This document shows positions 8,315 through 62,762 of a stretch of DNA of 64,000 nucleotides, in pieces. The notes under the pieces were generated by a model. The model worked only from the letters and a program-made list of their open reading frames with translations, ran no database searches and was not told the DNA's origin. Position 1 is the stretch's first letter, and every line of letters starts with the position of its first letter. This stretch comes from Hirudinaria manillensis. Taxonomy: Eukaryota > Annelida > Clitellata > Hirudinida > Hirudinidae. Position numbers and translations under genes: made by a program. The stretch is from contig CM067526.1 in assembly GCA_034509925.1 (NCBI GenBank), positions 13,464,510 to 13,528,509 of the forward strand, written 5' to 3'.

Positions 8315-23674
<15,360 letters not shown>

Positions 23675-56416: not shown

Positions 56417-57712
56417 TGGTTCTGAAAGTGTTAGGATAATTGACTCTAGCTTAACAATTAAATGACAACTTGATTTTTGTTTAAAAGTTTGGGTGTTGTG
56501 ATATTTTATTAAATAATATTTTCTTTTTATTTTGAGGTTCATCTTAGCTTTCAAGAAATCCTACAAAATGCCTAAACATTTTTATTTATTTATTTTTTCT
56601 TAATCATTTAGTAATCAGTCAATACCAGTGCAATGAGATGTTTTACAGTGACACATTGAGATTACGACACTGAAGTTAATTGAATTCATAGAAGAGTGAG
56701 ATTAATTTTGCCATTGTCACCTACAAACAAGGCAATAAATCCTGGGGTAGAAAGTATATTAGAGACACATTTTAAATGCAATTAATAAGTTGTTTGTTTC
56801 ACTTTTAAGGCCAATGAATCGATCAAACAAAGCTACCATCTTATATCAGACTTAACGTTTTGCGGGCTTGATGACCTTTATAATTTTTACACGGTGATAT
56901 TGTGGGAATATTGGCTGAATCTTCCAATGTCGTTTAGGTGTCAAACACATTCTGAAATTCTGAAGGGCGTTGCTTATTCAATCGAAACCTGATTATTTTG
57001 GTCGCCAAAGTGGACCGTCATTTACTTTCTCAAATTAACTCTTGTTCAGTCAGGTGGTTAAGGCATTAACACAGTGAAATAAGAAATGCATTTCTTGCTG
57101 CTGATGCTTCGCCAAAGGGGGACATAATTATCAAAATTTGCAAGTGTTTTGTGATTGATATGATAACCAAACCGGTACCCGCTAATACTGATCTATTGTT
57201 TGGTAGCCTGGGGATTAGCGCTAAATCCCGCTGGTTGCGTATTCAAAGGCCAAGTACTTGATAGATTTTTAATCTCGATTTCCTCAGGTGACCCGTGGCG
57301 CCTGACCAGTGCACCAAACGTTTGGAGACTTGCTAACTTAGCAGGTTTCATTGGATAAATCTGCTTCTAACCAGCCAAATCTTGAGTTTCTTATTGTAAT
57401 CGTAATTCGCAATTTTCATTTAATTGGCTTCGTGCTGATATAACAGATTATTATGGGTAAAAGTTAAATAGTAAGCGCTGCGAGACACCTAATACTTGTC
57501 GGACGTGAAGCATACCTATCGGCATCAGTTGTAAACAAAGTTGTCGGGAAGTTTTTAAGGTGAGAGATTTGACTGTGGACTGAGTTGTCGACTGATTTGA
57601 GAGTAACGGATTCAGTGTCGTTTGTATTTAAGAGGCGGACTGTCTCGCAACTGTGCGATTTGTACGTTTTTCGTGGAGTTATTGGAGAAACAACATTTTC
57701 AATCGAGCAAAC
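56417..57712. other. GATAD1 3' UTR and USP promoter region
   Basis: AT-rich spacer with no gene recognised. A polyadenylation signal AATAAA at 56734-56739 is well placed for GATAD1. A block at about 57195-57260 resembles a decayed tRNA-like or SINE-like sequence but lacks two clean internal promoter boxes. The last 150 bp before the USP start are GC-richer and probably 5' untranslated. Confidence 0.5.
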
Positions 57713-59224
57713 ATGACCAACCAGAGGGAGAGAAAATTTAGCATTTTTGACGTCGGAAGAAAGAGCAGTCTCAATTCGGAGATGGAGGGTTTGGCGAAAC
57801 AGATGACAAACTTGGAAGTATCACTAGGACAGGTAAACAACAACAACGCCGAAGGCGAAGGTGATGTTGTGATGATTGGTGTCGACGGAAGCAGAGCTGC
57901 TGATGAAGCCATCACTTGTAAGTTTATCAGTTTGTTTCAATCACTCGAGATCCCTTGACTTCTGCCTAAAACCTTTGTCTTGGTCCCAAACAATGTGTGT
58001 TTGTTACTAAAATTGTTAAATGCAGTTTGTGTCTACCAAAAGTTAAAATTTGGCATTTTGTTTCGCAAGTTTTGAGTCTTAAGAGGTTACCAAGTTTGGT
58101 GCTTATTATCAATTGTTTTTGGATGGAAGCTTTAAAGTAAATTAACTTCATAAAAGTTAGTGACTAATATAAATTATATTAGAGTGTGGAAAATTACTGG
58201 CCCAAAATTCATTGTAAATTATGACCATATCCAGTAATTCTCATTTATTCATTTATAACTTTGAGTTGACATTGTTCTTCGTAATGGAGCTCATTAAAAT
58301 ACCTTCAATGAATTCAATTCTGACGAGAACCTGTCATTGTTAGGGAAGCCAGTGAAAATGACAATCAATGCCCTGTGTTTTAACAACAATGAATGTCAAT
58401 TTTTAATGAATTTTTAAGTCATTATAAATTAAATGATTTATTTATTTATTTATTTGTTTCAATATCCTTAACAAATGTTGATCGACGTGTGTCTTCTATC
58501 CAGGGTATTTGGAACACCTCCACAAGAAAGAGAACATGCTGATCATCGTTTATGCTGTTGAAATGCCTCCCTCCGTGTCCAGGGATGGTTGGTGTTACCT
58601 TCTTTTGCCACACCCGAGTCCCTACCCGGGACTTGAACTCTGTGCCTTTGTGCCTCGATTATTTACCAATCCATTGATTCCAATTAAGATGTACAATTAA
58701 GTTGTTCACCCCAGTGGATTCGGTCATTCATTTATTTTTGGAGATAAATTTTTATTTTATATTTTTAATTATTTAATAAATATATTTAATGATATATATA
58801 AATTTTTATTATAACATTTTATATTGTTATTTATTATATAAATAATATTTTATAGTCAGATATTTGTTAATTATTAAATCAGGCTGGGAATCTCAGATTC
58901 AGATTGGAAAAAAGAAACAGGAGGAGTTACAGGAGAGGTACATCAAGAAGTTCAGAGAGCTCGGGGTTAGTCAACCGTGAAAATTTGTCTTTTTCCAGAA
59001 TCTGACCGGAACCTTTTGATCGCTTTCTGCAGCTGACCGGGGAATTCCTCTCCGAGATGGAAAAACCTGGAGATCTGATAGTCTCCTCCGCCAGGAAGAA
59101 GAGGGTGACTTACATCGTCATGGCGTCGCGGGGCTTCACGCGCGGCCGCAAGGCGGTCGTCGGAACCGTCAGCGACTTCGTCATCCACAATGCCGAGTGC
59201 CCCGTCGTCATGGCGAGGACATGA
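57713..59224 (+). CDS. Universal stress protein (UspA family)
   Basis: Four coding exons, 57713-57917, 58504-58587, 58883-58965 and 59033-59224, encode 187 residues. A polar N-terminal extension of about 50 residues precedes the USP fold. Strand 1 and its loop read VVMIGVDGSRAADEAI (about 53-68), strand 2 LIIVYAVEMP. The ATP/phosphate loop region is SRGFTRGRKAVVGTVSDFVI, with the G-x9-G-T pattern of nucleotide-binding members, and the domain closes with CPVVMART. The usual single domain of about 140-160 residues is thus complete at the TGA (59222-59224). Animal USPs are cytosolic ATP-binding stress proteins of unclear detailed function, common in lophotrochozoans and cnidarians and absent from vertebrates. 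The stop is in a leaky context with a long in-frame continuation (see the next entry). Confidence 0.92.
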
Positions 59225-60265
59225 CTATCGGGGAGTGGGGGAGTCGGCAAGGGGGTCGCGACCCCCGACTCGCTCACTCGCAACGAGGGCCGTGCTTGCC
59301 ACGACGACGGGGACAGATGCGATTACTTGTCCGATGGAATGATCGATGATGATGATGATGATGATTGTGATGATGACTATGATGGTGATGACGACGACGA
59401 CGATGATGGTGACAATGATGATGATATTAAGATGTCTGCCAGAAGGGGTAGTGGAGACGGGATGGAAGCAATACCTGAGAAATGCCTCAAGGCATCAGAT
59501 TGTAATCAGACGAGTGCTAATAAAGAGGAGGAGGAGGACGACGACGACGATGGTTGTTTCATAGCCAAAGCAAAACTTCAACGTTTCCATGGCAGGCCGA
59601 ATGTCATCGAAGTCGACGGAAGTAATGTCAGAAACGATGATTCGAGATTAATTTCAGAATACTCGAAACAAAAAAACAGGGCCTGCAGGGGCATTGAGGC
59701 GTCCACCTTTGACCCCGAGAGAGGTCAACACAGGGTCAGCCAGCACATGCCTTTACATAAAATGAAGCTGAACTTTGAGAGAAAAGACTTTCCAGCTCCC
59801 TCGGATTCGAAAGGATTCCTCGCCAAACGTTCGACTTGCGGCAAAACGCTCGTCGCAACCAAGACGAGCTTGACCTTGTCGAGGGTCGATCGCACCGAGG
59901 TGGTTCACGTAGAGCAGACGATGGCCACGGATGAAGGGGACTACGAAAGTACGAGGAGGACGATCGTCAAGCACACCTCGGAGGAGACCGCGGTCCTGCC
60001 GGAACACTTCCAGCATTTCCAGAAAACCTTTCGAGAGTCGGACTTCATCTTCTTCGTCAGGCTGCTGCCCCTGCTCTTCCTCTGCTGGTTCTTCTCGTTT
60101 ACGTCCGGGATCGCTTCAGTGGACTTCAAAAAGTTCATCGTCGTGCTCGTCCTCCTCTTCCTCTTCTTCGTGAGGTCCTCGGTCTCCGGCTACGTCGAGA
60201 AAGCGACGCTACCCGGGGTCGACGCCTTGGACCCTCGAGACCTTTCCCTCGACCATCCAGATTAG
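59225..60265 (+). CDS. In-frame C-terminal extension of USP, possible readthrough product
   Basis: Directly after the USP stop the same frame is open for 346 codons up to a TAG at 60263-60265. The extension has a Gly/Ser-rich start, a GAT-repeat-derived acidic run (about 59339-59430), a polar basic middle, and two hydrophobic segments near the end (FIFFVRLLPLLFLCWFFSF and KKFIVVLVLLFLFFV, about 60043-60172). A 28-residue tail follows. Codon third positions are rich in C and G as in neighbouring exons, arguing that it is coding. It could be reached by UGA readthrough, giving a 534-residue membrane-anchored USP, or be a separate ORF starting at the ATG at 59339. No homologue is recognised. Confidence 0.5.
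   Translation, partial: LSGSGGVGKGVATPDSLTRNEGRACHDDGDRCDYLSDGMIDDDDDDDCDDDYDGDDDDDDDGDNDDDIKMSARRGSGDGMEAIPEKCLKASDCNQTSANKEEEEDDDDDGCFIAKAKLQRFHGRPNVIEVDGSNVRNDDSRLISEYSKQKNRACRGIEASTFDPERGQHRVSQHMPLHKMKLNFERKDFPAPSDSKGFLAKRSTCGKTLVATKTSLTLSRVDRTEVVHVEQTMATDEGDYESTRRTIVKHTSEETAVLPEHFQHFQKTFRESDFIFFVRLLPLLFLCWFFSFTSGIASVDFKKFIVVLVLLFLFFVRSSVSGYVEKATLPGVDALDPRDLSLDHPD
59241..59271 (+). promoter_or_regulatory. GC-rich hairpin 16 nt after the USP stop
   Basis: Stem GAGTC/GACTC (59241-59245 with 59267-59271), a one-sided GGCAA bulge, then GGGGGT/ACCCCC closing a CGCG loop (59251-59266, a perfect 16-nt palindrome). It lies inside the in-frame extension. Stem-loops at this distance can promote stop-codon readthrough; the alternative is a chance palindrome. 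Confidence 0.55.
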
Positions 60266-62762
60266 TTTCTTTCGTACCTCTGGGAATTTCCGCCCACGTC
60301 TCACCTTTGAATGGTTTTCCTTTTTAAATCTTGGTTTTTAAATTAGATTAAATCTTCCCCATTGTTTTGCCTGCCACCACCATTCACTACCATCTTGACG
60401 TTTAATGTTTAATGATTTTCATGCATCGATTGACCTGCTAAGAACGAAGAGGTGTGCAAAGATTGTGACTGAGATTTCGCTTGTTGCGAGAGATTTTGAT
60501 TTACGACGAGCAAATGTTTTTGTACCGAACGACGAATGAATTCTTTTTGATCCGCGTGACAATAGGCTCGGATAGGGTTCGATGCATTCCATCTTTTAAA
60601 TCGACTTTAACACCCAATTTTTGTTGGATTTCCGTTTAATTTTTAGATTTGTTTTTAAACTTTCACTAATCCAGCGGCCCGACATCTGCACTGGAAAATT
60701 GTTGATAGTCTTAATGCATGCTCTCGTCTGCTGTTCCATATTTCACATTTTGTAATTTTTAGACTTCATTATCCTGAATTTATCGAAAACAACGATTTAT
60801 TGATGACTTAAGCCAAAACCCACGCAACTCCAAAACTTAAGCCAAAACTCCACAGTAATCAAGTCTCTCTCAGTACGCATTTGGCGATGGTCTTATTGAT
60901 TGAAGATATGACGGAGTTAAAATAACATTTATAAATTTTAGCATCTCATGTGCAAGCCTTCACTGTTCAAAACAGAAGCAACACGTCCACCAACAAATCC
61001 TAAATTAATTAAATTTGACTATCATCGATGTTTATTTAGAAGCTATATCCTGAAATGTTAGATATTTTGAGTATGATATTTTATGAAATAACTGTTCCTA
61101 TTAGTTATTATTATCTATCAATATCTCTCTACACTCTAAATGAACAATTTTCACATCAGTAAACTGTAAAAAAAATAAGAGATTATAAATTCAACATTTT
61201 TACCAAATACGCACGACCATTAAAAACGAATTTAAAATCTTTTTAATTTAAAAAAACTCACACAAAGTAATTCTGGGATTGGAATGTCATAATTAAAATA
61301 GATATTACTCAGAATGAGGTATAACAGGTAATTGTTGGCCATGGTTGTATTTGTTTTATCTGTAATATACTCAACCAGATGGTTTAACATTTGGTGGGAT
61401 TTCCACTAAAAAGTTGTTATTTTGGTTATTTACGTTGAGAATAACTCAGGAATGTGTCAGATAATAACAGTTGTTATATATTCAATTCTTAAAATAATAA
61501 TTTTTATAATTGTGTAATGTGTAAAATGGAAGCTGACCAAATCAAAGATCAAAACTAAATCTTGAGTTTCCATAAACTTAAGTGGCAGATTAAGTAAAAA
61601 AAGATTATCAGCCAGCATATTAACAATAATAAATAAATAACTATAATATAATCAGAAATACCTTTAAATGTAATGCATAATTTGTAATCACACTGCAGAA
61701 TTTCCTATAAAAATCCATTGATAATTATTATCATTACTTTTAATTATTATTCAATATTTTAATAATTATGATCAAAAGAATTTCAATTGAAATTATACGT
61801 GTAAGGCAATGAATTACGTTATAAAGTCTGTCGACCACTGATGATTTTTGTTGATGAATTTAAATACGTGGCTGTGAAATAGAATTTTGAGGTTGTCATT
61901 AATCGAGATTTTGTGTGGAATTAAATATAATATATTAATGGAAAATTTGATTACTTTAACTCAAAGCAGTTTTAAAGATCATTACATAATAATTATAATG
62001 GGTAATGTAACAGCTCATGTTATGTAGTGTATACCATTATGTAGTTTAATCAAGATAGTAAATACTAAGTGTACCATTGATAATGAATGTAATTATAATT
62101 AATTAAACAAAATTATAATAGTATTGAAATTACTTTGCACATGTTATTGCACTCTTCTCATTATCTTTCCAAAAGTAACGTACGACGTTCAATATGTACT
62201 AAAAAGTTAAACTATTGTAAATTTTGAGTCTGGATTAAAATTAAATTGATTTTGCTTAAAATATAAATGAAAGTTTTCTAAATTCCGTTTAATATGTTCT
62301 TCAAACCATTTCTATTCTTAACCATTGCTTAGAATTGACAAGAGTTGGATCATTCTTGATGTGATGAAATACTACAATGATCTCAGTGACGTTAAACGCT
62401 TCAAAACCTTGCATATGTTCGACGAACGTTAACTTTGAATCTAAATCATATTGTGAGCCGACCTTCGAAAATAATTTACTAATTAAATATTACCGAGCAT
62501 TAAATCGAGATGAGAAACAAATAATAAAACATGTTGGGAAGAAATAACGGATCACAAATAACGAGCAAACCGTCCGCGCATATGTTCCGATGTCAGGGAC
62601 TCCTATTGACGTTCGGTCATCATAATCCCAGAAACCGAAATATTTAAGTTTCTTGGATTTTACACAGCTAAAGTCCCGGCTGAAACTCGCACTACTAAAT
62701 ATATAAGATTAATAAATGTCACTTTAATGCACGTAAATGAGATCAGTATTTAATGGGGATAG
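60266..62762. other. AT-rich intergenic region
   Basis: About 2.5 kb with no gene, array or RNA gene that I can support. The first few hundred bases are GC-richer and probably 3' untranslated sequence of the USP locus; the rest is uniformly AT-rich, unlike the microsatellite-laden left half of the window. Confidence 0.6.

Follow-up and report, generated by a model that had tools for sequence, protein, structure and literature searches.

Does translation of a universal stress protein (USP) gene of the leech Hirudinaria manillensis always end at its UGA codon, or do some ribosomes continue into the long open frame behind it? The gene lies in a stretch of 64,000 nucleotides (the window), to which coordinates refer unless another contig is named.

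USP gene structure and the frame behind its stop

The USP gene at 57713-59224 (+ strand) has four coding exons with GT..AG introns and encodes a product of 187 residues. The gene and the frame that follows it comprise the following features:

57713-57917, + strand: USP exon 1, from the ATG to a GT donor; spliced frame and GT..AG junctions match an intronless copy on contig C9, alignable to this exon from about 57766
58504-58587, + strand: USP exon 2; frame and junctions compared with the C9 copy
58883-58965, + strand: USP exon 3; frame and junctions compared with the C9 copy
59033-59221, + strand: USP part of exon 4; Pfam Usp match at 59054-59218
59222-59227, + strand: TGA stop and CTA codon, a leaky context read from the sequence; the C9 copy has TGG CCA there
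59225-60265, + strand: in-frame extension of 346 codons plus TAG; open frame homologous to the fused protein on C9
59339-59560, + strand: acidic segment with an in-frame ATG at 59339
60041-60115 and 60128-60196, + strand: two hydrophobic segments, a proposed membrane hairpin; seen by hydropathy in the window and C9 copies and strongly conserved in C9

Exon 4 alone is recognised as a Usp domain (36.9 bits; Pfam cut-off 24), and the C-terminal residues of the USP, PVVMART, directly precede the TGA at 59222-59224. The stop is followed by CTAT, giving the leaky context TGA CTA T and bearing out the original prediction of a TGA followed by CTA. Because exon 4 has no intron after the TGA, a message terminated there has no downstream exon junction.

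Regarding the frame behind the stop, its predicted length and coding-like composition both hold: it runs open for 346 codons to a TAG at 60263-60265 in the same frame as the USP, and GC by codon position is 0.56/0.39/0.64 over the extension vs 0.36/0.43/0.37 after the TAG, with third-position GC reaching 0.8-0.9 in the majority of 120-base steps between 59840 and 60140. First-order Markov sequences of the same composition contain 12.5 stops on average per 346 codons, and none of 20000 simulated sequences stayed open (Poisson 3.6e-6). The extension frame is the fourth longest stop-to-stop frame in the 64-kb window. Elsewhere in the window, an 876-codon frame at 14003-16633 (- strand), by appearance a non-LTR-like element, has a reverse-transcriptase domain (RVT_1, E 1.2e-31), and an open frame at 8818-9594 (- strand) has a partial laminin G domain (E 5e-8).

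Residue counts and hydropathy reproduce the predicted order of an acidic run, a basic middle and two hydrophobic stretches: extension residues 39-112 contain 35 D/E and 6 K/R of 74, and the 113 residues that follow contain 23 K/R and 13 D/E. The two hydrophobic segments, called as helices from hydropathy and separated by a short loop, are among the best conserved parts of the extension between window and C9, and a long form would probably be held at the membrane with both ends on one side. A known domain was not found in the Pfam search of the extension (best match DUF2457, E 0.24, below cut-off) or in the PDB sequence search with 59561-60262 (best E 0.57). The acidic run at 59343-59440 derives its codons from a GAT/GAC-type repeat; similar repeats are numerous across the genome, and the run may have grown from a microsatellite. 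An AATAAA at 59519, within the extension, could, if used, mark the end of a short transcript and provide a second control over the long form.

The stop codon within the USP family

In the 148 Mb genome (23 contigs) the Pfam Usp profile detected 16 places, namely the window, the intronless locus on C9 and 14 others. In 15 of the 16 the match starts at profile position 77-90, the last-exon boundary, which makes introns the normal condition of the family. All 14 other USP genes were taken into a comparison of stops, in which five end in the same alignment column as the window TGA, five further genes one or two codons beyond it, and four run longer. The window USP thus stops at the normal place for its family, as originally proposed, and judged by this column its TGA looks retained, not new. 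It shares with other USPs the Usp domain, the last-exon boundary and the stop column of most of the 14 paralogues; unlike them, it is followed by a long same-frame extension with two hydrophobic helices, which is fused outright in C9. The next in-frame stop comes after 346 codons in the window vs within 4-45 codons in the 14 other genes, none of which has C as the base after the stop, and the codon score of the 342 nt after each paralogue stop, taken in the frame of that stop, is negative in all 14. Fusions of USP domains to membrane proteins are known from microbes. A separate search of the genome, in which 150 of 162 candidates were scored, gave 63 matches to the antistasin repeat.

An intronless copy joins USP and extension

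The locus on C9 encodes USP and extension in one open frame with no stop between them (418 codons from a TTG, 406 from the first ATG; Usp match of 43.5 bits). Its alignment with the window gene after splicing starts inside exon 1, at about 57766, and reaches the final TAG; all three introns are absent, each lost exactly. Such exact loss implies an mRNA intermediate, and thus USP and extension shared one message, as the original readthrough proposal requires. By its structure the C9 copy is a retrogene derived from mRNA; it contradicts, for the ancestral message only, two outcomes that the original prediction had named as speaking against readthrough, a transcript that ends early and splicing that bypasses the TGA. 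An AATAAA 214 nt and an A10 tract 252 nt downstream of the C9 stop would fit retroposition, and comparison of the C9 flanks revealed no shared word of at least 7 nt, a target-site duplication not being seen. The protein search with the extension (25 of 25 candidates scored) recovered the extension itself, two adjoining C9 pieces and one acidic stretch elsewhere, and the DNA search (40 of 1386 candidates scored) recovered the window with a self-complementary match, C9 and otherwise simple GAT-type repeats; among the candidates scored, neither search found another copy of the locus or a haplotig.

Beside the C9 copy, a 127-codon frame on the opposite strand (L013:2467-2850) resembles, by eye, what we take to be a piece of a MraW/METTL15-type methyltransferase. 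Another segment of the same contig, C9:3024946-3029286 (L022; 4341 bases), is over its whole length 99.7% identical to the mitochondrial contig C23, running across the point where the end of C23 joins its start, with a COX1 part identical at 1336 of 1341 bases, and appears to be either a recent nuclear mitochondrial DNA copy or a scaffolding error. In C23 (15,581 bases) COX1 reads with the invertebrate code and is followed on the same strand by what are presumably cox2 and the cox3 start, recognised by eye. Together with the antistasin repeats and the appearance of COX1, this gene order suggests an annelid and probably a leech.

At the stop site the window reads ACA TGA CTA TCG vs ACG TGG CCA TCG in C9, and the TGG CCA of the copy would count against readthrough. 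A recent nonsense change, a polymorphism or a sequence error, in a gene whose ancestor encoded the fused protein with TGG, would be a simple account of C9, since TGG becomes TGA by one transition; the frame past the TGA is intact, as expected behind a young stop, and the very stable GC-rich hairpin at this site could hamper sequencing. A chance stop, however, must hit the normal stop column of the family and must also adjoin CTA, a rare codon here (1 of 187 USP codons, 2 of 346 in the extension including this one, and 1 of 419 in C9), and we consider this account unlikely. Concerning polarity, the family stop column favours TGA as the older state, whereas the opposite arm of the hairpin, compared with C9 by eye against predicted pairs, agrees with C9 at TGG and CCA, a weak hint that TGG may be older.

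Insertion of selenocysteine, which would fit a UGA lying in frame ahead of coding sequence, is hardly credible, as the C9 paralogue has Trp and not Cys at this position. The search for a SECIS element in 57000-62500 gave no match at E up to 1, and this candidate was rejected on both grounds; the same search returned nothing but two snoRNA matches that fell far short of their gathering scores.

Coding evidence in the extension

A codon model was run on two sequences, the window gene and the C9 copy, a comparison that cannot place constraint on the window's lineage; it gave an omega of 0.263 for the USP part (166 codons) and 0.353 for the extension (241 codons; P 1.5e-7 against 1). Within the extension, omega is 0.249 for the last 113 codons (P 6.2e-6), 0.320 for the middle 66 (P 0.012) and 0.257 for the 62 codons before GMEA (P 0.043), and other estimators gave extension ratios from 0.25 to 0.58. 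For the first 24 codons aligned behind the stop, constraint is not significant (omega 0.428, P 0.18), while a third-position excess is found directly after the stop (P 0.03). The alignment of the extension has 11 gaps, 10 of them in C9, which are whole-codon gaps by construction because it was protein-guided; both frames are nevertheless open.

A codon score was trained on 1715 codons, drawn from the genome's USP genes and from two frames of the window whose identity is unconfirmed. It is positive in the middle (+9.4), in the C-terminal part (+19.1) and in the 105 codons that C9 lacks (+13.9), and negative in the linker, the 38 codons behind the TGA (-6.6), and in the acidic run (-14.4). Antisense frames also score positively in places (acidic run, +7.0; C-terminal part, +17.2), so that these scores are no more than suggestive of coding. 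Protein coding is thus well supported for the later two thirds of the extension, and for the first third, which is open, in frame and common to both copies, the indication is weak. Under simulated neutral substitution the frame stayed open in 6.2% of runs at 0.10 substitutions per site and in 0.05% at 0.30 per site. Silent divergence between the copies is about 0.6-0.8 in the USP part; given how rarely the frame survives neutral change, either the TGA arose recently or translation of the extension persists.

The weakness of the coding evidence before 59339 (38 codons) would also suit initiation of the extension as a protein of its own from an internal ATG, 59339 or 59462, on a bicistronic or shorter transcript, with fusion in C9 as a later event. 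In-frame ATGs occur at 59339, 59432 and 59462, the last of which is conserved in C9. Yet C9 has both parts on one message, the ATG at 59339 falls in a C9 gap, two out-of-frame ATGs lie between the stop and 59339, and the extension shares the USP frame with zero stops in its first 38 codons, which makes separate initiation an improbable explanation.

A predicted hairpin encloses the stop codon

The original prediction placed a strong hairpin 16 nt downstream of the stop. A stable stem is indeed predicted near the stop, but the inner stem starts 8 nt after it (59233) and forms the end of a larger hairpin within which the stop itself lies:

59198-59315, + strand: hairpin enclosing the stop, arms at 59200-59247 and 59265-59312; predicted fold
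59233-59279, + strand: inner stem, proposed readthrough stimulator; predicted pairs, +12 to +58 from the first base of the stop

The arms form a 48-nt inverted repeat that is 71% complementary without gaps. The fold of 59195-59318 reaches -74.4 kcal/mol (z -6.57, 0 of 200 shuffles), and repeat tests of the hairpin gave z -5.85 (0 of 300 shuffles) and z -6.17. The stretch 59233-59282 alone folds at -31.5 kcal/mol (z -3.53, 1 of 200 shuffles), with z -3.3 for another short piece. The 100 nt after the stop (59225-59324) are ordinary when taken alone (z -1.2), and judging the hairpin from them was rejected; it is the whole with its upstream arm that stands out. Folds around the stops of the 14 other USP genes range from z -2.26 to +1.03, and the C9 site gave z -1.71, with -2.21 (8 of 300 shuffles) for a longer and +0.22 for a shorter stretch. 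In a coarse scan of the window (2061 pieces of 124 nt in 31-nt steps), whose grid missed the exact frame of the hairpin that yields -74.4 kcal/mol, the lowest energy was -61.5 kcal/mol at 22352-22475 and the piece at 59211 came second (-55.6 kcal/mol). A ribosome with UGA in its A site would have opened the outer stem, leaving the inner stem.

In the minimum-energy fold A59224, the last base of the stop, is unpaired opposite C59290, between the pairs G59223-C59291 (probability 0.61) and C59225-G59289 (0.75); an alternative pairing has a probability of 0.43. A-to-I editing of this base in a share of the mRNAs would turn UGA into UGI, read as UGG (Trp), and C9, which carries G at the equivalent base, may descend from an edited message. 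The predicted fold, in which A59224 faces C59290 within a long imperfect duplex, would suit ADAR enzymes, which favour A opposite C, and four places in the genome code for adenosine-deaminase (A_deamin) domains. These enzymes prefer U or A as the 5' neighbour and disfavour G, however, and the 5' neighbour of A59224 is G; the register at the stop is uncertain in view of the alternative pairing, and TGG can arise without editing. In the amber/W editing of hepatitis delta, the A of the stop codon lies opposite C in a duplex and Trp results when it is edited, an arrangement that the predicted fold of the window resembles, with the difference that the window stop is UGA, hence the G as 5' neighbour. 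Among the papers listed by a literature search, none was on stop editing in annelids, and editing seems quite improbable here.

Readthrough as the preferred explanation

Programmed stop-codon readthrough at UGA 59222 is the explanation that we favour, with moderate confidence, as the best reading that accounts jointly for the context, the stem, the family stop column and the preserved extension. Of the readthrough interpretation as originally put forward, the one-mRNA origin, coding over most of the extension, the UGA-CUA context and the near stem stand, while the first 38 codons are weakly coding; the little constraint just past the stop (omega 0.43, P 0.18) would weaken it.

Readthrough, its rate, the membrane location and any regulation are matters that we infer, as follows. 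Ribosomes on the spliced USP mRNA would mostly stop at UGA 59222 and release the soluble USP of 187 residues, and a minority would decode the UGA via a near-cognate tRNA, since termination at UGA-CUA is weak and would be hindered by the stable stem 8 nt downstream. Ribosomes reading through would translate 346 further codons, giving the USP an acidic linker, then a basic middle and, at the C terminus, a pair of hydrophobic helices by which the long form would be tethered to a membrane. The message of the ancestral gene would have been copied back into C9, where TGG allows the long form only. A more speculative view, which we regard as doubtful, is that the stop is recoded in a self-complementary element serving possibly both as readthrough stem and as ADAR substrate, the C9 copy being a fossil of the recoded message and retroposition having made an optional membrane-tethered USP constitutive.

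Comparison with known readthrough systems

UGA CUA is the human high-readthrough consensus, and UGA CUA T was efficient in a reporter, according to the available text of PMC4359377; G after CUA is described as the strongest motif in that of PMC4132726. As far as these two sources are accessible, the site resembles vertebrate OPRK1, OPRL1, MAPK10, AQP4 and LDHB in having UGA then CUA and a coding signature past the stop (PMC4132726; PMC4359377). It differs from them in having U, not G, after CUA, in that readthrough is a prediction from sequence here, and in extension length, 346 codons vs 13 in MAPK10 and 18 nt in LDHB.

Regarding the stem, a predicted structure at +9 to +59 promotes readthrough in Drosophila dfr (drifter/vvl), where deletion, shifting or weakening of the stem lowers it, according to the accessible part of PMC13170385. 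Like dfr, the window has a stable stem right behind the stop and a coding pattern further downstream; unlike dfr, in which the stop is UAG, it has UGA, and its stem forms the end of a hairpin whose pairing extends into the coding sequence before the stop. Since a 3-nt shift of the stem lowered readthrough in dfr (PMC13170385), the start at +12 in the window vs +9 in dfr is only a rough match.

Among the species tested, abundant readthrough was reported for Pancrustacea alone, as given in the available portion of PMC5100048, which cites the EFLGa peptides of the annelid Platynereis as a case of proposed readthrough. In the available text of PMC3890597, retrieved by the annelid search, the word readthrough is present in a reference title alone. 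The open-literature search found neither readthrough of an animal USP, the matches listed including Francisella Usp and bacterial work, nor a readthrough-retrogene pair, and among the matches listed none was on leech USP genes by title.

From the retrocopy it follows, on DNA evidence alone, that one message carried both stop and extension, and a leaky parent together with a stop-free retrocopy in one genome would be a natural experiment separating an optional from a constitutive long form. If confirmed, the long extension would convert a soluble stress protein into a membrane-bound one, and the gene would be an annelid readthrough gene, outside the Pancrustacea in which, from the available portion of PMC5100048, abundant readthrough has been reported.
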